64,000 nucleotides of DNA from Flavobacterium ovatum (GTDB lineage: Bacteria > Bacteroidota > Bacteroidia > Flavobacteriales > Flavobacteriaceae): the NCBI RefSeq assembly GCF_040703125.1, contig NZ_CP160035.1, positions 1,054,001-1,118,000 of the forward strand, in the 5' to 3' direction. Below are positions 143-12,094 of the stretch, in pieces. Under the pieces are notes generated by a model, which saw only the letters and a program-made list of their open reading frames with translations, was not told the DNA's origin and made no database searches. The translations under genes were made by a program, and so were the position numbers. The first letter of the stretch is position 1. Each line of letters begins with the position of its first letter.

Positions 143-811
143 ATGGCTCAATTTACAAGAATAGAAGTAGCACAAGTAATGAAAGAAACAGGACTTGTTC
201 CATTGTTTTATCATAAAGATATTGAAGTTAGTAAAACAGTTTTGAAAGCTTGTTATGATGGTGGTGCTCGATTACTAGAATTTACAAGCAGAGGTGATTT
301 TGCTCATGAAATTTTTTCAGCATTAGTTAAATATGCAGTTGCAGAATTGCCAGGAATGGTTTTGGGTGTTGGTTCTGTTACCGATGCTGCTGCAGCTTCA
401 TTGTATATGCAATTGGGAGCAAATTTTATTGTTACTCCAGTTCTTAGAGAGGATATAGCTATTGTGTGTAACCGTCGTAAAGTGATGTGGTCACCAGGTT
501 GTGGTTCGTTAACTGAAATTGCAAAAGCGGAAGAAATGGGATGCGAAGTAGTAAAATTATTCCCTGGAGAATTATATGGTCCAGCTTTTATCAACGGAAT
601 CAAAGGGCCTCAGCCTTGGACTACTATTATGCCAACTGGTGGAGTTTCGCCTACTAAAGAAAGCTTAACAGAGTGGATCACTGCAGGTGCTGTTTGCGTA
701 GGTATGGGTTCAAAATTAATCAAAGCAGATGCTCAAGGTAATTTTGATACCGCAAAGATTGAAGCATTGACTAGAGAATGTATTGATATCATTAAAGACT
801 TGAAAAAATAA
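143..811 (+). CDS. eda: KDPG aldolase (bifunctional KHG/KDPG aldolase)
   Basis: A 222-residue cytoplasmic class I aldolase, full family length. It cleaves 2-keto-3-deoxy-6-phosphogluconate to pyruvate and glyceraldehyde-3-phosphate, the last step of the Entner-Doudoroff-like branch used for uronic acids. The Schiff-base lysine is Lys138 in EVVKLFPGE, the general base region is Glu46 in RLLEFTSR, and the phosphate loop is MPTGGV. The gene lies 11 bases after the KDG kinase and is followed by a strong hairpin terminator at 857, so it is the last gene of an operon entering from the left. In this locus it processes KDG from unsaturated uronates released by the downstream PL6 lyase. The assignment is secure; the preferred substrate is inferred from context. 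Confidence 0.95.
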   Translation: MAQFTRIEVAQVMKETGLVPLFYHKDIEVSKTVLKACYDGGARLLEFTSRGDFAHEIFSALVKYAVAELPGMVLGVGSVTDAAAASLYMQLGANFIVTPVLREDIAIVCNRRKVMWSPGCGSLTEIAKAEEMGCEVVKLFPGELYGPAFINGIKGPQPWTTIMPTGGVSPTKESLTEWITAGAVCVGMGSKLIKADAQGNFDTAKIEALTRECIDIIKDLKK

Positions 812-1331: not shown

Positions 1332-1382
1332 TATATTTGGAAAACCAGATTGGTTAATCAGTTTAACAAACCAATATGGTTT
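1332..1382 (+). promoter_or_regulatory. SusC promoter with 13-bp-phased operator units
   Basis: TATATTTG (1332-1339) matches the Bacteroidota -7 consensus TAnnTTTG. Overlapping and following it are units of the form TTGG-N4-CCA at 1337, 1350 (last part TCA) and 1363 (TTAA-N4-CCA), exactly 13 bp apart. A perfect palindrome AAACCA-ATA-TGGTTT lies at 1368-1382. The same layout precedes the PL6 gene and the gene at 10796. TTGGTnnACCAA-like sites are typical of FadR/UxuR-type GntR regulators; that identity is an inference. No -33 TTG was found at the expected spacing. Confidence 0.7.
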
Positions 1383-1485
1383 AATTAGTAACCAATAAAA
1401 CTTTGTCTATAAATGAAATGCAAAATTTAATTTAGAAGGTTTTTCTATCCTTTATTCAATCAATTTAATCACTAACAAATCAACT

Positions 1486-4400
1486 ATGAATTTTAAAATT
1501 AAACTTAGTTTAATGCTTATGATGATATTTAATATATCGTTATTTGCGCAAGGCGGATATACTTTATCCGGTACAGTACTAGATGCTGGAAAAATGCCAA
1601 TTCCGGGTGCAAATGTTGTTATCGCCAATTCAACCAAAAGTGCGGCAACAGACTTCGATGGAAAATTTCAATTGGAAGTTAAAAAAGGAGATGTACTTCA
1701 ATTTTCGTACATAGGATTTAAAATGCAATCAATAACTATTACAAACCAAAAGACACTCAACGTTGTTCTGGTTGATAGTTCAAATGAACTAGAAGAAATT
1801 GTTATTGTGGGGTATGGTTCCCGAAAAAAGAGCGATATCACAGGAGCTGTTTCTTCTATTAAATCGGAAGAAATTAACGCATTTCCTTTAGCAAGTGCAG
1901 AGCAAGCTCTTCAAGGTCGTGCAGCTGGTGTAGTTGTTCAATCAAATAATGGTGGTGAGCCGGGAGCTCCTATTAGTATTAAAGTTAGGGGGAATACTTC
2001 TATTAATGCAGCTAGTGACCCACTTATTGTTGTTGATGGTTTTGTAGGTGCTACTATGCCGCAAGCAAGCGATATTCAATCTATTGAGGTATTGAAAGAT
2101 GCATCAGCAACTGCCATCTATGGTTCTAGAGGTTCCAATGGTGTAGTTATGGTAACTACAAAAAAAGGTAGAAGTGGTAAATTAACAGTTGAGATGAATA
2201 CTAACTATTCTGTTCAAAATACTTCAAACAGACTAGATTTATTAAATGCAGCTGAGTTTATTACTTATAAAAAAATAACAAATCCTAGTTTTGTTGCAGG
2301 AACTGCAGATACAGATTGGCAAGATTTACTATATAAGACAGGAAGTACTCAAAATCATCAATTTTCGTTTTCAGGTGGAAGTGATAAAATCAACTTTTAT
2401 GCTTCGGCTAATTATTTTAAACAAGATGGAGTTATTATCAATTCTGACTTTGAAAAATTAACTTTCTTGTCGAACATTGATGCTCAAGTTACAGATAAAT
2501 TAAAATTAGGTTTTAACCTTTTTAGCAGTAGATCTACTAAAAATGGAGTTCCTACACAATCAAATGGTTTAACAGCCAATGGTGGTGGAGATGATGTGAT
2601 TTCGTTAATGTTTAGATTTAGACCTGATTATGGAGTAAAAGACCCTATAACTGGATTAAATACAACGGATAATATTGCTGATGAAGTTGATAATCCGTAT
2701 GCTATCGCTACTGAAGCTGTAAATAATACTAAAGCAGACATCAATAGATCAAACTTATATGCAAATTATGATGTTTTGAAAAATCTTACTTTTAAAACTA
2801 CTTTTGGTTTTAGTACAACAAATGAAACAGTTGGGTCTTTTAGACCTTCAACATTGCTAGTTACTGCAGGTAGAGGTACAGGTGGAAAAGCAGGAATTGC
2901 AAATCTTAAAAAATCAGACATATTGACAGAGAGTTACTTGACTTATAATAAAGAAGTAGGAAAAGGGACTTTAAGCTTATTGGCAGGATATTCTTATCAA
3001 AAAACAACTTCAGAAAGATTTTCTGCGGGTGCTCAAAAACTTACTGATGATAGTTTTTCTTACTATAATTTAGCTGGTAGTGCAGTTACCGTATTACCTA
3101 CTTCCTCTTTTACAGAACAGGAAATTGAATCTCAGTTTGGAAGATTAAATTATGATTACAATGACAAATATTTGTTGACTGCTACTGTTAGAAGAGATGG
3201 GGCATCAAATTTTGCTGCAAATGAAAAATATGCCATTTTTCCTTCTGGTGCTTTGGGTTGGAAAGTTTCAAATGAAGATTTTTTAAAAGATAGTCAAACT
3301 GTTTCAAACTTAAAGTTAAGAGCGAGTTATGGTGTAACAGGTAACCAAGCAATTTCAGCTTATCAGTCGTTACCAAGTTTAAGTACTCTATATGCCGGGA
3401 TTGCCAATGTACCTGTAGGTGCGGTTGTGCCAAATCAAGCTGCAAATCCAAATTTGAAATGGGAATCGTCTTATCAAACAAATATTGGTTTGGATTTAGG
3501 TTTGTTGAATAATAAAATTTCACTTTCATTAGATTATTATAACATTGACACAAAGGATCTTTTATTAGCAGATGCAAGTCAACCAGAATATCTTGGTTTT
3601 TTGACTTTAGCAAGTATTAGAAACGTTGGGGAGATTAATAATAAAGGTTTTGAAGTTTCGTTGAATACCAAAAATATAACTGGTCAAGATTTTAGATGGA
3701 CTACAGATTTTAACTGGTCTACAAATAAAAATAAGGTAGTTAAATTGATTGGTGGTATTGATGTAATTCAGAATGCTGCACCAGGTTTCTTTAGCAATCA
3801 AGCAGGTACACATATTTTAAGAGAAGGTGAAGCTGCAGGTGTATTTTATGGTTGGGATTATCAAGGTGTTTACCAAGGTGGTACTTTACCAGCAGGTACA
3901 GCTACTACAGCTAATGCCGCAACACGTCAAGCAGGAGATCCATTGTTTATAGATGTAGATGGAAGTGGTACTATTACTACGACTGATAGAAAAATTATAG
4001 GTGATCCTAATCCAGATTGGAATATGGGTATTACTAATAACTTTAGCTACAAAAACTTTGACTTGAATATCTTTTTTCAAGGATCTTACGGTGGGGATAT
4101 TTTTAACCTTACCAGAGCACAGTTGTTTAGAGGAAGTTCAAATGCACTTAAAGAAGTTCTAAATGCATGGACACCTACAAACACAAACACAGATATACCT
4201 CGTGTTATAGCTGATAGAAGAGAGATTTCTTCTCGATTTGTAGAAGACGGAAGTTATATTAGACTTAAAAATATCGCATTAGGATATAATTTACCAGATA
4301 ACATTATTGAAAAGTTAGGATTAGAGAACCTTAGGTTATCTATAAGTGCACAGAATTTGTTAACTTTTTCAAAATACTCAGGTTTAGATCCTGAAGTGAG

Positions 4401-4515
4401 TTATTTTGGTTCTGGTTCTGGATCTACAGGACAAGCTAATACAACGAAAGGGTTTGATTTTGGAAATTTTCCAACAGTTAAATCATGGAATTTTAGTCTT
4501 AGTTTAAAATTTTAA
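1486..4515 (+). CDS. SusC/RagA-family TonB-dependent outer-membrane transporter
   Basis: A 1009-residue protein, normal SusC length. Residues 1-22 are a signal peptide ending SLFAQ. Residues about 25-100 form a carboxypeptidase-D regulatory-like fold (YTLSGTVLDAGKMPIPGANV), then the SusC signature EIVIVGYGSRKKSDITGAVS. The plug domain follows at about 110-220 with GSRGSNGVVMVTTKKGR, and the rest is the 22-strand beta barrel ending in aromatic FSLSLKF. It imports oligosaccharides across the outer membrane using TonB energy, with the SusD lipoprotein as lid. The partner begins 22 bases downstream, so they are co-transcribed. The substrate is inferred as alginate oligomers because of the neighbouring PL6 lyase and KDG/KDPG genes; another uronan is possible. 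Confidence 0.95.
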   Translation: MNFKIKLSLMLMMIFNISLFAQGGYTLSGTVLDAGKMPIPGANVVIANSTKSAATDFDGKFQLEVKKGDVLQFSYIGFKMQSITITNQKTLNVVLVDSSNELEEIVIVGYGSRKKSDITGAVSSIKSEEINAFPLASAEQALQGRAAGVVVQSNNGGEPGAPISIKVRGNTSINAASDPLIVVDGFVGATMPQASDIQSIEVLKDASATAIYGSRGSNGVVMVTTKKGRSGKLTVEMNTNYSVQNTSNRLDLLNAAEFITYKKITNPSFVAGTADTDWQDLLYKTGSTQNHQFSFSGGSDKINFYASANYFKQDGVIINSDFEKLTFLSNIDAQVTDKLKLGFNLFSSRSTKNGVPTQSNGLTANGGGDDVISLMFRFRPDYGVKDPITGLNTTDNIADEVDNPYAIATEAVNNTKADINRSNLYANYDVLKNLTFKTTFGFSTTNETVGSFRPSTLLVTAGRGTGGKAGIANLKKSDILTESYLTYNKEVGKGTLSLLAGYSYQKTTSERFSAGAQKLTDDSFSYYNLAGSAVTVLPTSSFTEQEIESQFGRLNYDYNDKYLLTATVRRDGASNFAANEKYAIFPSGALGWKVSNEDFLKDSQTVSNLKLRASYGVTGNQAISAYQSLPSLSTLYAGIANVPVGAVVPNQAANPNLKWESSYQTNIGLDLGLLNNKISLSLDYYNIDTKDLLLADASQPEYLGFLTLASIRNVGEINNKGFEVSLNTKNITGQDFRWTTDFNWSTNKNKVVKLIGGIDVIQNAAPGFFSNQAGTHILREGEAAGVFYGWDYQGVYQGGTLPAGTATTANAATRQAGDPLFIDVDGSGTITTTDRKIIGDPNPDWNMGITNNFSYKNFDLNIFFQGSYGGDIFNLTRAQLFRGSSNALKEVLNAWTPTNTNTDIPRVIADRREISSRFVEDGSYIRLKNIALGYNLPDNIIEKLGLENLRLSISAQNLLTFSKYSGLDPEVSYFGSGSGSTGQANTTKGFDFGNFPTVKSWNFSLSLKF

Positions 4516-4537
4516 TATAAAATAAAAATATCGGAAA

Positions 4538-6079
4538 ATGAAAAAATATAAATATATATTCGTGTTGGTAGGACTATCAATAATGGGATGTTCGGATTTA
4601 GAAGAAAAACCTGTTGGCTTATTAACCCCTGAGACTTTTTTTACGTCTGTAGATAAAATACAATTAGCGGTAAATGGAGCTTATGGTCATATGCAACATA
4701 GGAACTTTATGTCTAGAGAGATGTCGATGTCACTTATGTTAGCTAGTGATATGGTCGATCTTAATGTAAATGTTACAAACCCTGAAAGAGTTCAGTTTAA
4801 TACTTTAGCTCTTCAAGCTGATAATGCAAATATTGCTGTATATTGGCCGAAATGCTATCAAATTATTGGTGCTTGTAATGACGCTATTGCAGGAGCTGAT
4901 TTAGTTACAGCAGATCAAACTGCGAAAAACCCAATTGTGGCTCAGGCTCGTTTTATAAGAGCATTTGTGTATTTCCATTTAGTGAGACAATTTGGAGCTA
5001 TTCCTTACCTTGAAGCGCCAGTAACAGATGTTATTGCGGCAGGTTCAATTAGTAAGACTCCAGTTGCAGATGTGTACGCAAAAATCATTGTAGATTTACA
5101 GTTTGCTAAAGAATGGTTGCCGAATTTTCAGACAGCTAGAGCGATGCCTGCTAAATCAGCAGCAAGTGCTTATTTGGCTTCAGTTTATTTAACAATGGGG
5201 CAATATGACAACGCTAATTATCAAAAAGCCTATGATGAGGCGAAAGATTGTATATCAAAAGAAGGGATTTATAAGTTAGGTTTAGAAGCAAATTTTCAAG
5301 ATGTATTTGATACTTCTAAAACAGATGCTTCTCTTGAACCAATATTTGTAATAGATTTTATTGGTACGTCTGACGGAGATCAAGGAAGAGATTATCAAGC
5401 AGCATTTACAGGTATTAGAGCTGATGAACAATATGGTTCTGGTGGAGGTTGGTCTGTAGAGGTTCCATCTTTAAGCGTGTATACTAGTTGGAATGACCTT
5501 GACTATAGAAAAGCAGTTAGTTTTGATGCTACAGGAGTTTTTAAAGGTGTAAGACAACCATATACTAATTTTAAAACTTACTATAGTGCTGGTGATAACC
5601 GTCCGCATATTGCAAAGTATACTCGTAAAGCAGGTACAGCTTTAGAAGGAAATGGTAGAAACACAAAAAGCAATTACTTAATGATGCGTTATGCGGAGCT
5701 GTTGTTGATTGGCGCTGAAGCGGCGAATGAAGTAGGGCAAACAGGTGACGCAAATACATGGATAAATAGAGTAAGAGCAAGAGCAAGATCAGGTGGAGGT
5801 TTGATTACAGCTAGTGCTTTCCCAGCAGATGTTTCAGGATTAACTAAAGATGCTTTTAGAACAACAGTTCTTGATGAGCGTAAGTGGGAACTTGCTTTTG
5901 AGTTTTCAAGATGGTATGACATCGCAAGAAGAAATTTAGGACCAACAGTATTTGCAGCTGGTGGATTTGAAGGAGCTAAGTCTGGCTTTAATCCAACTAG
6001 AAATTACTTGTTTCCATTACCAGCAAATGAGTTAACTAGAAACCCTAAGTTATTGCCTCAAAACCCTGGTTATAATTAA
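4538..6079 (+). CDS. SusD/RagB-family surface glycan-binding lipoprotein
   Basis: A 513-residue protein with a lipoprotein signal whose lipobox ends at Cys18 (SIMGCSDLEE); the SDLEE residues after the cysteine fit a Bacteroidota lipoprotein-export signal. The early LTPETFFTSVDKIQLAVNGAY segment and the C-terminal LFPLPANELTRNPKLLPQNPGY block are hallmarks of SusD proteins, and TPR-like helices lie between (for example QARFIRAFVYFHLVRQFG). It captures glycan at the cell surface and forms the lid of the upstream SusC barrel. It sits 22 bases after susC and is followed by a terminator at 6249, so susCD is a closed two-gene unit. Confidence 0.95.
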   Translation: MKKYKYIFVLVGLSIMGCSDLEEKPVGLLTPETFFTSVDKIQLAVNGAYGHMQHRNFMSREMSMSLMLASDMVDLNVNVTNPERVQFNTLALQADNANIAVYWPKCYQIIGACNDAIAGADLVTADQTAKNPIVAQARFIRAFVYFHLVRQFGAIPYLEAPVTDVIAAGSISKTPVADVYAKIIVDLQFAKEWLPNFQTARAMPAKSAASAYLASVYLTMGQYDNANYQKAYDEAKDCISKEGIYKLGLEANFQDVFDTSKTDASLEPIFVIDFIGTSDGDQGRDYQAAFTGIRADEQYGSGGGWSVEVPSLSVYTSWNDLDYRKAVSFDATGVFKGVRQPYTNFKTYYSAGDNRPHIAKYTRKAGTALEGNGRNTKSNYLMMRYAELLLIGAEAANEVGQTGDANTWINRVRARARSGGGLITASAFPADVSGLTKDAFRTTVLDERKWELAFEFSRWYDIARRNLGPTVFAAGGFEGAKSGFNPTRNYLFPLPANELTRNPKLLPQNPGYN

Positions 6080-6248
6080 TTAAGGTCTTAGAATAAGTTT
6101 GCTTTGGGTTTATGGTATTGAATGGTAAGCCTAAAGTCAAACTAATTAAGAAAGTTGTTATTTAGTGAATAATACTATAAAAGGATGATTATAAATTTAT
6201 GGACTATTCTATATGGTCCTTCGGAATAAAATTAATTTGCTTTTTATA

Positions 6249-6290
6249 AGATATACTGACATGAATTTCATGTTAGTATATCTTTTTTTT
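6249..6290 (+). terminator. Terminator after susCD
   Basis: A perfect 16-bp stem (AGATATACTGACATGA with its complement) with a 3-base loop, followed by eight T. It lies 170 bases after the susD stop. Confidence 0.92.
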
Positions 6291-6525
6291 GTAGAAATTT
6301 TCAGAACAGATCTGAAGATGATTACGTTATAGCTGTAGCGTTTAGTAGGAATTGTTGCGGTTTATTTTGAATAAGTAATCGTAATCGTGTACGTTATTAT
6401 TTCTTATTGAAAGAATAGCCCTAAAGCTGGAATAATCATAGTTGGCGTTAAAAAAAAAACTATTTTAAATCAAGAAAGTGAATTTTTAGTAAGACCTAAA
6501 ATGTATTTAATTAAAAAATATTAGA
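6291..6525. other. Leader region of the bicupin gene, nothing recognised
   Basis: The whole gap from 6080 to 6525 holds the susCD terminator and this stretch. I see neither a TAnnTTTG element nor the TTGG-N4-CCA units found at the other locus promoters, so the following gene appears to be controlled differently or from a promoter I cannot recognise. Confidence 0.4.
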
Positions 6526-7356
6526 ATGAAAAAAAATAGTGCCATTGTGCTTTTGTTATTATCGTTTACACTAATAATACAAGCTCAAGAAATCCCGATA
6601 GAAAAGCTAAACACACAATTAACAGAAAATACTAAGCGATATTCTAAATCAATTTTAGAAAATGAAATAAAAGGGATTCATGTTGAACAAATATCTTTTA
6701 CTGGTAAAAGTGGATTGGTGGATTATTCCAAGGAAGGTTACAGAACAATCTACTTGTTTTTTAAAGGAAAGGGAACTGTAAAGGCAGCTAATAAAAAGTA
6801 TGAGATTGTGCCAGAAACGATTTTGTTGCCCAATGTAGCCAAAAGCATTACAATCAAAACTGCAAAAAATGACACCTTACATTATTTGAAAATTGTAACC
6901 AAACTTTCTGCTCAAGACCTCATTGAGTTAAAAGAATTCTCTGCTGAAAGCACTCAGAATGTATATTATGCAAAATTTACAGATTGCAAGCCTTATACCG
7001 AACCAATCAAAAGTCCAAACACGATCAGTCGCACGATAATGCCCAACAAAATTATTCCTAGAATAGCGATGGGAACCGTGCAAACAAAAGGTCCGGATAA
7101 AGTAGGTGCTCATAAACACCCCATGTTAGAGCAATTATTTTTGAGTCTTTCCAAAAACAACTGTGTAGTGTACGCTGATGATGCTAAGATGGCTTTACCT
7201 GAATACGCGTTACTTCATATTCCATTAGGTTCGATGCATTCTGTTTCTGTAGAAAAAGATGATGTACTATATTATGTCTGGATGGATTTCTTTATGGACA
7301 GTAAAGGGGAAGAATGGTTAAAAACACATAATGTTACCGAAGACAAGAAAAAATAA
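6526..7356 (+). CDS. Secreted bicupin, candidate unsaturated-uronate processing protein
   Basis: A 276-residue protein with signal peptide MKKNSAIVLLLLSFTLIIQA. Two cupin-like halves are visible. The first (about 50-125) has lost metal ligands. The second (about 175-260) keeps the canonical set: His196 and His198 (GAHKHP), Glu202 (LEQLF) and His238 (GSMHSV). In flavobacterial alginate loci a cupin (KdgF) linearises 4,5-unsaturated monouronates, but KdgF is a single cupin of about 110 residues without a signal peptide. This larger exported form may act on the same chemistry in the periplasm, or may be a binding protein. The gene stands alone between two terminators. The fold is secure; the function is inferred from context. 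Confidence 0.75.
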   Translation: MKKNSAIVLLLLSFTLIIQAQEIPIEKLNTQLTENTKRYSKSILENEIKGIHVEQISFTGKSGLVDYSKEGYRTIYLFFKGKGTVKAANKKYEIVPETILLPNVAKSITIKTAKNDTLHYLKIVTKLSAQDLIELKEFSAESTQNVYYAKFTDCKPYTEPIKSPNTISRTIMPNKIIPRIAMGTVQTKGPDKVGAHKHPMLEQLFLSLSKNNCVVYADDAKMALPEYALLHIPLGSMHSVSVEKDDVLYYVWMDFFMDSKGEEWLKTHNVTEDKKK

Positions 7357-7393
7357 GTGCATAATTTATGATTGTGTCAAATCGCTATCATAC

Positions 7394-7437
7394 AAGAATC
7401 CCAACCTACATCAATTTTGTAAGTTGGGATTCTTTAT
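7394..7437 (+). terminator. Terminator after the bicupin gene
   Basis: A 17-bp stem starting AAGAATCCCAACCTACA with one G-U pair, ending in a T-rich tail. The core ATCCCAAC-TACA stem is the same as in the terminator after eda at 857. Confidence 0.85.
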
Positions 7438-7476
7438 ATTTCATGATAGTGTATGTTTAATTCAATAATTCCAATA

Positions 7477-7593
7477 TTTTGGGTGTGCCCCTCCGTAATC
7501 ACGACGCTTCGGGACGGGCCAAACATTGCAAGTCCTCAACAGGTTCTGCTATCGCTACAACTTGTTTGCAGGCTTTCCGTTTCTATCCCTCAC
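7477..7593 (+). repeat. Dispersed intergenic repeat, copy 1
   Basis: Starts TTTTGGGTGTGCCCCTCCG, contains GGGACGGGCC and GCTATCGCT, and ends TTTCTATCCCTCAC. It matches, in the opposite orientation, the element at 33230-33338 in these landmark blocks and their order. It is GC-rich compared with its surroundings. A 62-codon open frame across it has no protein-like features and is not called as a gene. The element resembles a non-coding repeat that I recall from Flavobacterium genomes; this was not checked. Confidence 0.75.
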
Positions 7594-7712
7594 AAATCTT
7601 TTTTAGAAACACATAAGTCGATAAAAAAGGAGTGTAAATAATGGATTTAAAGTATTGATTTAATGAATGTTATTTTTTTTAGTTAAAAAGTTTTTGATGT
7701 CGAATTTATAAT

Positions 7713-7754
7713 TATATTTGGTTTTTTAAATTGGTAAACCAGTATGGTTTTCCA
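7713..7754 (+). promoter_or_regulatory. PL6 gene promoter with phased operator units
   Basis: TATATTTG at 7713-7720 is a perfect -7 element. Units at 13-bp intervals follow: TTGG-TTTT-TTA at 7718 (degenerate), TTGG-TAAA-CCA at 7731 and ATGG-TTTT-CCA at 7744. The palindrome AAACCA-GTA-TGGTTT (7736-7750) matches the SusC palindrome in 14 of 15 positions. The units cover the expected transcription start, about 55-60 bases before the gene, which suits a repressor. Confidence 0.72.
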
Positions 7755-7786
7755 GTAAAGGATTAACTAACCAAAATGATATATTG

Positions 7787-10612
7787 ATGAAAAAAATTAC
7801 TTTTTTGAAGGGCAAAGTCTCCAAACACTTTTTTGTGTTAATGGGGTTTTTAATTTTTAATGAACTGCAAGCACAAACGACCTATACAAGTGCGAGTACG
7901 TTAATCACTGCTGTTAAAGCTGCTGGAACTAATGGAGGAACCTTTATCCTTAAGAATGGAAGTTATGCTGGTTTTCAAGGTGGATTTACTGATATGAATC
8001 AAACTACTGCCAACCCGATTATTATAAAAGCAGAAACTGTTGGAGGAGTAACTTTAACTGGAAATTCTTATTTTACTTTTAAAAGATGTGCCAATTTTAT
8101 CGTTGAGGGTTTTAATATTATAGCAACAGGAAGTAGTACATTGGTAAAACTTGAAGGATCAAATAACATAAGGATAACCAGAAACATATTTGATTTGACT
8201 ACAACAGTTGCAATCAAATGGGTATATATTGGTGGTGTTTATGATGATATTGTTTATCCTTATACAAACCCGAGTCACCACAACCGAATTGACCACAATG
8301 TTTTTCAAAACAAACACACTTCGGGTCATTATATTACTATTGATGGTAATAATTCAAAACACCAATCAACATACGATCAAATTGATCACAACTATTTTAA
8401 AGACAATAATCCAAGAGCAGTAAACGAGCAGGAATCGATTAGAGTAGGCTGGAGTGATATGTCAAAATCAAGTGGGTTTACAACGGTTGAATATAATTTA
8501 TTTGAAGGTTGTGATGGAGATCCTGAGGTATTATCGGTTAAATCATGTGATAACACCATTAGGCATAATACATTTCGTGGAAATTACGGAACGCTTTCTT
8601 TTAGACATGGAAATAGAAATAGAGCTGAAGGGAATTATTTCTTTGGAAACGGCAGAGATATTGGAAGTGTTACAGATCCAACTACTGGAGCAGTTACTAA
8701 TTTGTACACAGGAGGAATGAGAATTTATGGTACAGATCATGTAATTGTCAATAATTATTTTGAAGGATTGAATGGGACCAAATGGGATGCGCCTATTACA
8801 CTTACGCAAGGTGATGCAATTGAAGGATCAAGTACTGATTTGACTAAGCATTACCGTGCAGAGCGTGTATTTATTGGATATAATACTTTGGTAAATAACG
8901 ATCAAGGAATTGAAATAGGTTTTACTAACAATAATAATTATACTAAAACAGTAAGTGAGGTTACTATTGCTAATAATTTAATTACAAGTAATCGCAATAG
9001 TTTAGTTAAAATAGTAGACGGTAAAGATCAGGGAAGTGCTATTACGTGGTCTAATAATTTGATGTATCCTACAGGAGCTGCAACACTTATTTCTGGAGGA
9101 ACATCGACTACATTGTCTAATTCAAGTCAAGTAATTGTTGAAAATCCTAATTTATTATTTGATAATGCCACGAGCACTTGGAGAACTTCTGCAACAACTG
9201 CATTATATGTAAATACCTTAAACACCGTAAATACAACTACAACAACACTTAATGAAGAAATTGAAGGCAAATCTAGACCTTCAACAAGTAACCCTGGAGC
9301 GCATCATTATAGTATAGAGTCAGTTCGTTATATGCCAATGGTTGCTGCAACAGTTGGGCCAACAGCTTATGAGGATATCCCGCTTTCATTATCCCCAATA
9401 ACAAGTTTTACAATAGCTGGTGAAAATAAAGCAACAACAGTAACGACAAATTTGGCTTGGACAGCAACTGTTGATAGTCCGAGTTGGTTAAGCATTAATA
9501 ATACTTCAGGAACCGGAAATGGTTCTATCGCAATTACTGCTACTGCTAATACAACTGGTGCAGCAAGAACAGGTCTGTTGACCGTAACGGGTGCTGGTGC
9601 TACTCCAGTTACCTTGGCTATAACGCAAGTTGGACCAACACTTACTTTGTCTGCAGTTACTAATTTTATTGCTGGAGGTGAAGCTAAGTCAACAACTGTT
9701 ACATCAAATGTTGCTTGGACAGCTAATATTGATAATGCCTCTTGGTTAAGTATTAATACTGCTTCTGGAACAAACAATGGGTCAATAACGGTTACAGCTG
9801 CTGCAAATACACTTACAACTACTAGAACGGGAACTTTGACCGTAACAGGAAGTTCAATGGCACCAACAACTTTGACCATTACGCAAGCAGGAGTGCCATC
9901 GGGAGCTACGCTTATAAATACAGGTGCAGATGGAAATCCTGTTTCAGTAACTGCAACAAACACTCAATCTGGAGTTAATGTTGCAACAAATACTTTGGAT
10001 AAAAGTACTAGTACAAAATGGTCTGATGACGGTACTGGTGCTCCATTTGGAACATTGACCTATGACCTTGGAGCACAATATACACTAGAATCTATAAAGA
10101 TTTCAACTACTGGGACTTCTTCTAAATGGTATTATTATGGAATTCAATTCTCTACTGATGGATTGACTTATACAACTCCTGTAAATGTGCAAAGTGCAGC
10201 AGCATCTCAAACAACATATGCGATTTATCCTTTTACTAATGTAGCTCGATATGTAAAAATCATTGGAGGTGGTAATAATTCTACTGCATTTACATCTGTT
10301 TCAGAAATTGAATTTTGGGGTACAGCGAGTTCATTATCTGTTGATAAAAACCAGCTAAACAATGCTTTTGTGGTGTATCCAAACCCTGCTTCTAGTATTA
10401 TTAATTTGTACTCTTCAAGTATTAAGACTGCAAGTAAAGTACTAATTTATAGTATGGATGGAAAACAAGTGCTAGATAAAAAGCTTCAAGGTTCTGATTC
10501 CAATCATTTTGTTATAGAAATCAACACGTTAGAAAGCGGAACTTATTTGTTGAAGATTTTAGATGATACAAACATGATAGTAGGAACCAAAATGATAATT
10601 GTTAGAAATTAA
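7787..10612 (+). CDS. PL6-family alginate lyase, T9SS-exported, with BACON and discoidin domains
   Basis: The ATG at 7787 is preferred over a TTG one codon earlier, giving 941 residues. Domains: signal peptide 1-29; right-handed beta-helix lyase of the chondroitinase-B/PL6 type to about residue 430; BACON domains at about 530-615 and 619-700; an F5/8 type C (discoidin, CBM32-like) domain at about 705-845; a T9SS type A sorting domain from VVYPNPASS to the end. The catalytic pair is Lys252 (EVLSVKSCDN) and Arg273 (LSFRHGNRN), 21 residues apart as in chondroitinase B. It should cleave alginate by beta-elimination at the cell surface. Dermatan sulfate is the other known PL6 substrate, but KDG/KDPG genes nearby favour alginate. 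It is driven by a promoter shared in design with susC. Confidence 0.93.
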   Translation: MKKITFLKGKVSKHFFVLMGFLIFNELQAQTTYTSASTLITAVKAAGTNGGTFILKNGSYAGFQGGFTDMNQTTANPIIIKAETVGGVTLTGNSYFTFKRCANFIVEGFNIIATGSSTLVKLEGSNNIRITRNIFDLTTTVAIKWVYIGGVYDDIVYPYTNPSHHNRIDHNVFQNKHTSGHYITIDGNNSKHQSTYDQIDHNYFKDNNPRAVNEQESIRVGWSDMSKSSGFTTVEYNLFEGCDGDPEVLSVKSCDNTIRHNTFRGNYGTLSFRHGNRNRAEGNYFFGNGRDIGSVTDPTTGAVTNLYTGGMRIYGTDHVIVNNYFEGLNGTKWDAPITLTQGDAIEGSSTDLTKHYRAERVFIGYNTLVNNDQGIEIGFTNNNNYTKTVSEVTIANNLITSNRNSLVKIVDGKDQGSAITWSNNLMYPTGAATLISGGTSTTLSNSSQVIVENPNLLFDNATSTWRTSATTALYVNTLNTVNTTTTTLNEEIEGKSRPSTSNPGAHHYSIESVRYMPMVAATVGPTAYEDIPLSLSPITSFTIAGENKATTVTTNLAWTATVDSPSWLSINNTSGTGNGSIAITATANTTGAARTGLLTVTGAGATPVTLAITQVGPTLTLSAVTNFIAGGEAKSTTVTSNVAWTANIDNASWLSINTASGTNNGSITVTAAANTLTTTRTGTLTVTGSSMAPTTLTITQAGVPSGATLINTGADGNPVSVTATNTQSGVNVATNTLDKSTSTKWSDDGTGAPFGTLTYDLGAQYTLESIKISTTGTSSKWYYYGIQFSTDGLTYTTPVNVQSAAASQTTYAIYPFTNVARYVKIIGGGNNSTAFTSVSEIEFWGTASSLSVDKNQLNNAFVVYPNPASSIINLYSSSIKTASKVLIYSMDGKQVLDKKLQGSDSNHFVIEINTLESGTYLLKILDDTNMIVGTKMIIVRN

Positions 10613-10722
10613 AGTTTTGCGTTTAAAAAGTTTTTCTGTAAGTATTTAAAAACATACTTATGTGTTTGGTTACTAAATGAATATAAAAAACTAAAAATCT
10701 TTTTTTAATTAAATAAAATACT

Positions 10723-10764
10723 TATGTTTGGTATTCCAAATTGGTTATCCAATTTGGAATACCA
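10723..10764 (+). promoter_or_regulatory. Third phased operator/promoter, with a perfect 15-bp inverted repeat
   Basis: TATGTTTG (10723-10730) matches the -7 consensus. Units TTGG-TATT-CCA at 10728, TTGG-TTAT-CCA at 10741 and TTGG-AATA-CCA at 10754 are all intact and 13 bp apart. As a whole, 10730-10744 and 10749-10763 form a perfect inverted repeat around a 4-base centre. This is the best-preserved version of the motif found before SusC and the PL6 gene. Confidence 0.78.
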
Positions 10765-10795: not shown

Positions 10796-12094
10796 ATGAA
10801 AACAAAATTACTTAACAAAAATCGAATTGTTCAAGGTGTTGCTGTATTGGCAATGGCTTTGTTATGTTCTAATGCTCAGGCACAACAAGTTATCGGGCAG
10901 TTTCCAAATATGATTGGAGGGATTGAAGCAGAATCTACTACTGCTAATTTGCCAGTAGTATCTTCTACGGGTACAACACAATTTGCAAAATGGAGTATAG
11001 GATCTTCAAGTAATGCAGTTGTTCAAAAAGCATATTCTGATGGAACTGCTCGAACAGGAAATATTTATGTTTCCCAGTCTTTGGGAAGTGGTAAAACAAG
11101 TACTCGTTTACAAACACCTACAAATCCAGATACCAATTATCTTTTACCTAATACTGATTACATTATTCAATTTTATTACAGAGCTGCAGTTGACCCCACT
11201 AGTGTTCCTAATATTACAATGAGTGGTACTACGTATTTAAACGGTGTTGCTTCAGGATCTGTAAGTTCAAGTGCTGGAGCATCAACGGCTACATTTACAG
11301 CAAATACTTGGATTAAGTATGCACAAACCTTGAAAACTACTGCTACTGCTACTGCTACTTTTGCTCAAGGACCAGGTAATTTTGCCGCTGTACGTATTTC
11401 TGCTGTTAGCGCTGCTGATATTTTTACAACACAAGTTGACGTAGATGACTTTGTTGTTTACGCGGGTACTGTTCCTGATGTTATTAAGCCAGATGCAGCA
11501 ACCGCACCAACCTATTCTAAATCTGGAAATGATGCGACTATAGGTTGGACAGCGTCTGGAGCAATAGACGGTGGAGGTTATGTTGTTGTACGTTACCCTT
11601 CAACTTCAACTGTTTATAGCGATAATGATCCCAATCAAAACGGAATTTACCAAGTGGGCAATACCATTACAAATGGTACAGGGGCAGTAACAGGAACTGT
11701 GGTTTATATAGGAACTGGAGTATCTGCAACAATTACAGATCCAGACACTGCCAAGTATTATTATAAAATTTATGCTGTTGATAAAGCATTTAATTATTCA
11801 GATGAAATTACCGCAAAAGATGCAAGTTTAGCTGAGCCAACTTTAAGAGTTGCTAAAAACGACATCAAAGGATTAAACGTTTATCCAAATCCTGTGAAAG
11901 ATGGTAAATTGTTTATCAATACTGATAGTGGAGATGCTAAAAAAGTAGCTATTTATAATATTTTAGGAAAACAAGTATTGTCAAAAGAAGTTGCTTCTGG
12001 GCAAGTTGATGTTTCTAGCTTGAATAAAGGGGTTTACGTTTTGAAAATTACTGAAGCTGGTAAAACAAGCACAAGAAAGATTGTTATTGACTAA
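10796..12094 (+). CDS. T9SS-exported protein of unknown function, co-regulated with the alginate genes
   Basis: A 432-residue protein. Residues 1-29 are a signal peptide ending NAQAQ. Residues about 30-225 are rich in Thr, Ser and Ala and look like a beta-sandwich of the carbohydrate-binding kind (GGIEAESTT near the start, DVDDFVVYAG at the end, as in CBM4/9-like folds). Residues 230-345 resemble a fibronectin-III-like module (TIGWTASGAIDGGGYVVVRY, then KYYYKIYAVDKAFNYS). Residues 357-432 form a T9SS type A sorting domain (LNVYPNPVKDGKL). No catalytic motif was recognised. Its own operator, the most perfect of the three in the locus, suggests it serves the same substrate, perhaps as a surface glycan-binding protein. 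A terminator follows at 12123. Confidence 0.7.
   Translation: MKTKLLNKNRIVQGVAVLAMALLCSNAQAQQVIGQFPNMIGGIEAESTTANLPVVSSTGTTQFAKWSIGSSSNAVVQKAYSDGTARTGNIYVSQSLGSGKTSTRLQTPTNPDTNYLLPNTDYIIQFYYRAAVDPTSVPNITMSGTTYLNGVASGSVSSSAGASTATFTANTWIKYAQTLKTTATATATFAQGPGNFAAVRISAVSAADIFTTQVDVDDFVVYAGTVPDVIKPDAATAPTYSKSGNDATIGWTASGAIDGGGYVVVRYPSTSTVYSDNDPNQNGIYQVGNTITNGTGAVTGTVVYIGTGVSATITDPDTAKYYYKIYAVDKAFNYSDEITAKDASLAEPTLRVAKNDIKGLNVYPNPVKDGKLFINTDSGDAKKVAIYNILGKQVLSKEVASGQVDVSSLNKGVYVLKITEAGKTSTRKIVID

Follow-up and report, generated by a model that had tools for sequence, protein, structure and literature searches.

Tandem TGG-N4-CCA arrays on the -7 element at alginate promoters of Flavobacterium ovatum and their putative AusR-type regulator

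The window, i.e. the whole stretch of 64,000 nucleotides analysed here, starts within an alginate utilisation locus of Flavobacterium ovatum, and three of its promoters carry palindromic units repeated directly on the -7 element. The question raised by this locus is which regulator reads these units, and why they are arrayed in this way. We consider it highly probable from the sequence that the arrays serve as operators for a GntR-FCD repressor of AusR type, which would control the alginate utilisation system.

Arrays at three promoters of the alginate locus

The upstream side of the locus (L014, genome 1042001-1056500) encodes a PL17-type lyase followed by a KdgF-type cupin and a PL7-type lyase, then a GntR-FCD regulator, an MFS transporter, an SDR, a pfkB kinase (kdgK) and eda. 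SusC and SusD come next, in the window, followed by a 276-aa protein, a lyase of PL6 type and a 432-aa T9SS protein. The PL family names are our interpretation of Pfam matches. This gene order is very similar to that of the alginolytic cluster of Flavobacterium sp. UMI-01 (PMC4306948; L016 here), from whose likeness the SDR is probably of the DEH-reductase type. Promoters P1 and P2 were predicted for the UMI-01 cluster with -33 TTG and -7 TAnnTTTG elements, and a GntR-like gene was noted; operators are not described in the parts of PMC4306948 compared. A DUF1800 protein encoded on the opposite strand (L014:1610-3403) borders the locus. The features in the first part of the window are as follows.

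143-811, plus strand: eda (KDPG/KHG aldolase), terminus of the kdgK-eda cluster
1332-1339, plus strand: -7 element of the SusC promoter, TATATTTG
1337-1373, plus strand: putative SusC operator array; core 1338-1347 exact, core 1351-1360 with one mismatch, 1364-1373 decayed (two mismatches, CCA side kept)
1486-4515, plus strand: SusC (TonB-dependent receptor), first gene downstream of the SusC array
4538-6079: SusD, directly after SusC
6526-7356, plus strand: 276-aa protein, no Pfam match at 0.001
7713-7720, plus strand: -7 element of the PL6 promoter, TATATTTG
7718-7754, plus strand: putative PL6 operator array; core 7719-7728 decayed (two mismatches, TGG side kept), 7732-7741 and 7745-7754 exact
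7787-10612, plus strand: PL6-type lyase (Chondroitinas_B Pfam, BACON, F5/8C, T9SS tail)
10723-10730, plus strand: -7 element of the 432-aa gene, TATGTTTG
10728-10764, plus strand: putative operator array of the 432-aa gene; exact cores 10729-10738, 10742-10751 and 10755-10764
10796-12094, plus strand: 432-aa protein with T9SS sorting tail, downstream of the three-unit array

An earlier note on this DNA had described a TAnnTTTG element followed by TTGG-N4-CCA units at offsets +5, +18 and +31 at positions 1332, 7713 and 10723, and both the positions and the offsets were reproduced. In all three arrays the TGG-N4-CCA cores begin at +6, +19 and +32, and TTGG at +5, +18 and +31, from the first base of TAnnTTTG. 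The last three bases of the -7 element, TTG, also belong to the TTGG of the first unit. The ATTGG that starts the middle unit is present at all three promoters, and the outer units decay differently as claimed, with cores of at most one mismatch in units 1 and 2 for SusC, in units 2 and 3 for PL6, and in all three units for the 432-aa gene. A total of 15 two-unit matches with up to three mismatches were found on both strands of the window, versus 4.1 +/- 2.4 in shuffled sequences, and none of 100 shuffles reached 15.

The array was said to be missing before the 276-aa gene and eda, which was borne out, and the MFS, SDR and kdgK genes likewise go without it. No unit with at most one mismatch was found in the 11-bp gap upstream of eda or in the gaps upstream of the MFS, SDR and kdgK genes, and the 446 bp ahead of the 276-aa gene contain no exact unit and a single one-mismatch core at 6123. 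The AusR model therefore leaves the control of MFS, SDR, kdgK, eda and the 276-aa gene unexplained, which counts against it. Two gaps, between SusD and the 276-aa gene (6080-6525) and between the regulator and MFS genes (L014:8482-8659), contain a hairpin plus T-run that is terminator-like by eye, and the exact operator unit is absent from both.

Register, fusion and copy number in relatives

A relative of the regulator is encoded at 277 loci, and the arrangement was followed in the best 80 of them, flanked by up to 10 kb on either side; Zobellia is absent from these 80 loci. The best match has 93% identity, and the relatives with names put the organism within Flavobacterium or very close to it. 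Regions outside six-frame ORFs of at least 100 aa were taken as intergenic (165 kb in the 80 loci), a masking that can hide arrays. Exact intergenic TGG-N4-CCA cores numbered 272, versus 9 with N3 and 16 with N5. All 151 pairs of exact intergenic cores no more than 60 bp apart are in register, at 13 bp (116), 26 bp (33) or 39 bp (2). Each three-unit array contributes three such pairs, and species that are related do not make independent samples. With a one-mismatch partner admitted, 345 pairs lie within 45 bp, of which 340 are in register and five are out. The 278 cores within ORFs of at least 100 aa gave five pairs, all at 13 bp.

The cores were grouped into 152 arrays, comprising 49 of one unit, 65 of two, 35 of three and three of four units, and no array was found in three of the 80 loci. 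TAnnTTTG stands exactly 6 bp before the first TGG in 94 of the 152 arrays, distributed over 68 of the 80 loci. The consensus of 92 such fused arrays with one orientation is TATATTTGGtaAACCAAttTGGT.AACCAaTTT. None of the 49 single units is fused, and 41 of the 58 arrays that are not fused lie at the regulator gene. The N4 letters vary, while the register and the -7 offset stay fixed. The layout of the array is real and strictly kept across relatives, but the AusR-type switch itself is already known.

The palindromic copies could also work in RNA, as a 5'-leader hairpin instead of an operator, and 34 of the 36 positions of the three units of the 432-aa gene taken together (10729-10764) are indeed self-complementary. 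We consider this extremely unlikely, since 114 of the 152 arrays hold only one or two units and the fused first unit, overlapping the -7 element, would lie at least partly outside the transcript.

Each array was assigned to a downstream gene by the nearest BLAST match to the proteins of the own genome, with the following result.

SusC: 69 arrays; one unit 5, two units 27, three units 35, four units 2; 62 fused
Regulator: 48 arrays; one unit 39, two units 9; 7 fused
PL17: 12 arrays; one unit 1, two units 11; 9 fused
PL7: 7 arrays; one unit 1, two units 6; 5 fused
Distal-type PL6: 4 arrays, all of two units; 2 fused
432-aa type: 3 arrays, all of two units; 3 fused
Other downstream genes: 9 arrays

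The copy number thus differs by gene in the relatives: susC mostly has two or three units, most lyase-gene arrays have two, and the regulator gene mostly has one. This difference may provide tight repression of the uptake and lyase genes and milder autoregulation, and it makes the induction logic of a marine polysaccharide locus testable. Among the regulator promoters (n=49, own locus included), seven have the array at 97-165 bp from the called start. In 41 others a unit lies at most 40 bp from the start codon, and TAnnTTTN was found 19 bp before the intact core in 26 of them. Of these 41 promoters, 26 retain the CCA half of unit 1 and three its TGG half. At regulator promoters the register is often preserved, and the half of unit 1 that overlaps the -7 element is usually lost.

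These data suggest how the AusR-type operator may work. One 14-bp unit WTTGGNNNNCCAAW, with the consensus core TGGTtAACCA, would be the site for one repressor dimer. Since the 14-bp unit is repeated every 13 bp, neighbouring units share one outer base, and with a helical repeat of 10.5 bp each successive dimer would be rotated by about 86 degrees. With the first unit on the -7 element and later units over the expected start, bound repressor would exclude RNA polymerase, and an alginate breakdown product would release the repressor, as reported for the Zobellia AusR. Exact units are never out of register in the 80 loci although later ones need not track the promoter, an observation that speaks for contacts between adjacent dimers. 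The shared ancestry of the module must also contribute to the fixed register. Cooperativity of the dimers, suggested in the earlier note, is plausible, though overstated there. A broader and tentative proposal, which we regard as possible without favouring it, is a promoter-operator module throughout the Flavobacteriaceae. It would consist of 13-bp tiles sharing one base, with dimers rotated by about 90 degrees round the helix, and would be welded to the -7 element; the number of tiles would be set per gene class, the adding or eroding of tiles would tune the induction order, and the dimers would cooperate via a contact other than the N-terminal arm of NanR.

The regulator and its co-occurrence with the array

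The array had been read in the earlier note as a GntR/FadR-type operator fused to the -7 element, and a regulator gene was expected near kdgK. As a kind of operator this reading stands. Operators of UxuR/ExuR, PdhR and FadR are palindromes of the TTGGT...ACCAA type, for UxuR also with a 4-bp gap, and the units here share this type. The sole PF07729 (GntR-FCD) match of the genome was found inside the locus, 3.5 kb upstream of the window, between PL7 and MFS-SDR-kdgK-eda, with the MFS and SDR genes separating it from kdgK. Its own promoter contains one exact unit (L014:7745-7754). The residues R41, R51, R55, D151, H155, H202 and H224 are invariant across 29 regulators; the first three are presumably the DNA-contact residues known from FadR, and the other four presumably those of the FCD metal site. 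The regulator nevertheless lies far under the NCBIfam cut-offs of UxuR (59.6 versus 442 bits), FadR (32.9 versus 189 bits), ExuR, PdhR and LldR, the best NCBIfam match (111.4 versus 311 bits), and also under that of NanR (99.7 versus 260 bits). Membership in FadR, UxuR or NanR was rejected on these scores.

The closest described system is the AusR regulon. AusR of Zobellia galactanivorans is a GntR-family repressor in an alginate PUL, according to excerpts of PMC7874173, PMC8286568 and PMC8073546. Its operators reportedly come in one, two or three copies (PMC7874173, in part), and it is reported to repress most alginate genes until oligosaccharide effectors stop its binding and trigger expression (PMC8286568, in part). 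The same portions of PMC7874173 word the metabolite effect as 'enhancing transcriptional inhibition'; we follow the version of PMC8286568, in which metabolites would release AusR. By these partial descriptions both systems would have a GntR repressor inside an alginate PUL, one to three operator copies, and control over the locus plus scattered genes, whereas the genus is Flavobacterium here and Zobellia for AusR. The coding of a GntR-FCD regulator within the alginate locus is an AusR trait observed here, and the putative operators, with one to three copies at promoters of alginate genes, appear to be another. The operator at the regulator's own promoter is counted as an AusR-type trait by assumption.

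This kind of array had been thought undescribed, a claim that does not hold, since multi-copy AusR operators (PMC7874173) and a NanR triple repeat occupied by three dimers (PMC8012715) are in print, as far as the excerpts compared go. In E. coli, three GntR-type NanR dimers cooperate on (GGTATA)3, longer spacers weaken the binding, and the cooperativity requires a 32-residue N-terminal extension (PMC8012715, in part). NanR is similarly a GntR-type repressor of a sugar-acid pathway acting on adjacent repeats packed with dimers, a packing that here would follow from the spacing, but its repeats are GGTATA whereas the units here are TGG-N4-CCA palindromes. Residue 21 of the AusR-type protein aligns with NanR residue 39, which makes the arm about 18 residues shorter, and a long NanR-like N-terminal extension is absent from the regulator in the alignment with NanR and across the 29 regulators. 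No description of the 13-bp register was found in a literature search whose comparison leaves out Dudek et al. 2020 (NAR, doi 10.1093/nar/gkaa533), which reportedly covers the AusR regulon of Zobellia galactanivorans.

We further analyzed the distribution of array and regulator across genomes. In a genus sample of 199 genomes, the regulator was counted at no less than 70% identity and found in seven. Exact two-unit matches are present in 11 genomes, versus one genome for the reversed control. At least two matches occur in six genomes, all among the seven with the regulator, and one of the six has a single place; counted by distinct places, at least two were found in 5/7 regulator genomes versus 0/192 others. 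The five genomes without a regulator at that identity have one match each. No array was found in one regulator genome, which is 76% complete, or in a genome with a 59% relative of the regulator. In an order sample of 296 genomes, with the own and other genus genomes included, the fused array is present in ten genomes, i.e. nine of 13 with the regulator and one of 283 without, and in none for the reversed control. In the lone regulator-less genome it precedes a PL6-type lyase on a short contig. The exact fused pattern is absent from the other four regulator genomes (66, 66, 71 and 48% identity). Fisher p values, with kinship ignored, are 9e-11 (genus, by matches), 8e-9 (genus, by places) and 2e-13 (order). 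The regulator was found in 13 of 395 genomes of a phylum sample.

This pattern bears on whether another regulator reads the arrays and the AusR-type gene is merely nearby. The own genome encodes three other GntR-domain proteins (330-357 aa), and a LacI-family gene adjoins a distal PL6 gene at 673 kb, either of which kinds could supply such a regulator. The 80 loci alone are no test of this, because they were chosen by the AusR-type gene. The co-occurrence across genomes speaks against it, as does the unit that precedes the AusR-type gene in many relatives (48 of the 152 arrays), and we judge it very unlikely. An AusR-type repressor can thus be named as the likely regulator of the array.

The candidate regulon and the 432-aa protein

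The three promoters had been taken to define a sub-regulon of their own, which proved too narrow: the set also holds PL17-kdgF, PL7, the regulator gene and distal lyases. Fused arrays were found in the own genome at SusC, PL6, the 432-aa gene, PL17-kdgF, PL7, a distal PL6 and an operon at 2.90 Mb. The genome search proposed earlier (TAnnTTTGG-N11-TTGG) has the wrong gap and was rejected as mistyped for N9; it gave 14 matches, compared with 10 for its reversed control, and missed all three sites. The corrected N9 pattern gave 15 matches versus six in the reversed control. Six of the 15 are array promoters (SusC, PL6, 432-aa gene, PL17, PL7 and the 2.90-Mb operon), and among the other nine the one examined sits within a gene. 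The pattern misses the array of the distal PL6 gene at 673 kb, whose unit 2 has CTGG instead of TTGG. Candidate members outside the locus are listed below.

673 kb (380 kb away), minus strand: distal PL6, fused array
2.90 Mb: TIM-barrel plus heparinase-II/III operon, fused array
404 kb: PL7, single unit
625 kb: PL6, single unit
2.07 Mb: PF05426 alginate lyase, single unit

A tight single-unit pattern, TTGGTWNACCAR, occurs at 20 distinct places of the genome, nine within genes and 11 outside. The latter precede PL7 (404 kb), PL6 (625 kb), PL6 (673 kb), an aldehyde dehydrogenase (676 kb), the PL7 and PL6 genes of the locus, a TIM-barrel gene (1.98 Mb), the PF05426 lyase (2.07 Mb), a SusC/SusD pair (2.23 Mb, two sites) and ruvX, where the site looks like chance. 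TAnnTTTG lies 19 bp from the single unit at 2.07 Mb, 18 bp at 404 kb and 2.23 Mb, and 6 bp at 1.98 Mb, which is the fused offset; none was found within 60 bp of the unit before PL6 at 625 kb. The ORF called at 1.98 Mb starts with TTG, and the site there overlaps its first codons.

Single units lend some weight to the idea that the arrays arose by chance, or by mutational 13-bp tandem duplication without a regulatory role. The palindrome TTGG-N4-CCAA is frequent in the genome (99 per strand versus 21 in the reversed control), and eight of ten palindromes chosen among the matches listed, including the 1.98-Mb site, are inside called ORFs, the remaining two (404 and 625 kb) preceding lyase genes. 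The tight pattern is not enriched genome-wide, with 26 strand matches versus 38 in its reversed control. However, all but one of the 11 tight sites outside genes lie before alginate-type, uptake or aldehyde dehydrogenase genes, and the 80 loci keep a strict register and a fixed -7 offset despite varying N4 letters. Chance or simple duplication was rejected on the relatives' register, the -7 fusion and the order-sample pattern, and its probability is practically negligible. Read as AusR-type operators, the arrays and units add scattered lyase genes to this organism's candidate alginate regulon, and the strictness of the motif makes it helpful in searching Flavobacteriaceae for alginate genes.

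The perfect three-unit array ties the secreted 432-aa protein to alginate use. Searches of Pfam and NCBIfam at 0.001 matched this protein only to the T9SS tail or to tail-bearing families, besides weak Pfam matches with E up to 1, and a profile search of solved structures returned tail matches and one chance-level match (E 0.63). A total of 206 homologues were found at E <= 0.001, and the named ones are mostly from Flavobacteriaceae genera. The 432-aa protein is a candidate for a new alginate-binding or alginate-cutting protein.

Two similar TIM-barrel genes (L104:1565-4781 and L110:1465-2448) have units at or just before their starts, and one of them is followed by a heparinase II/III-type lyase; they are possible further members of the alginate regulon. 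The two single units of the second SusC/SusD pair (L105, genome 2222000-2240000) are separated by 273 bp, or some 26 helical turns, which is possibly a looping arrangement.
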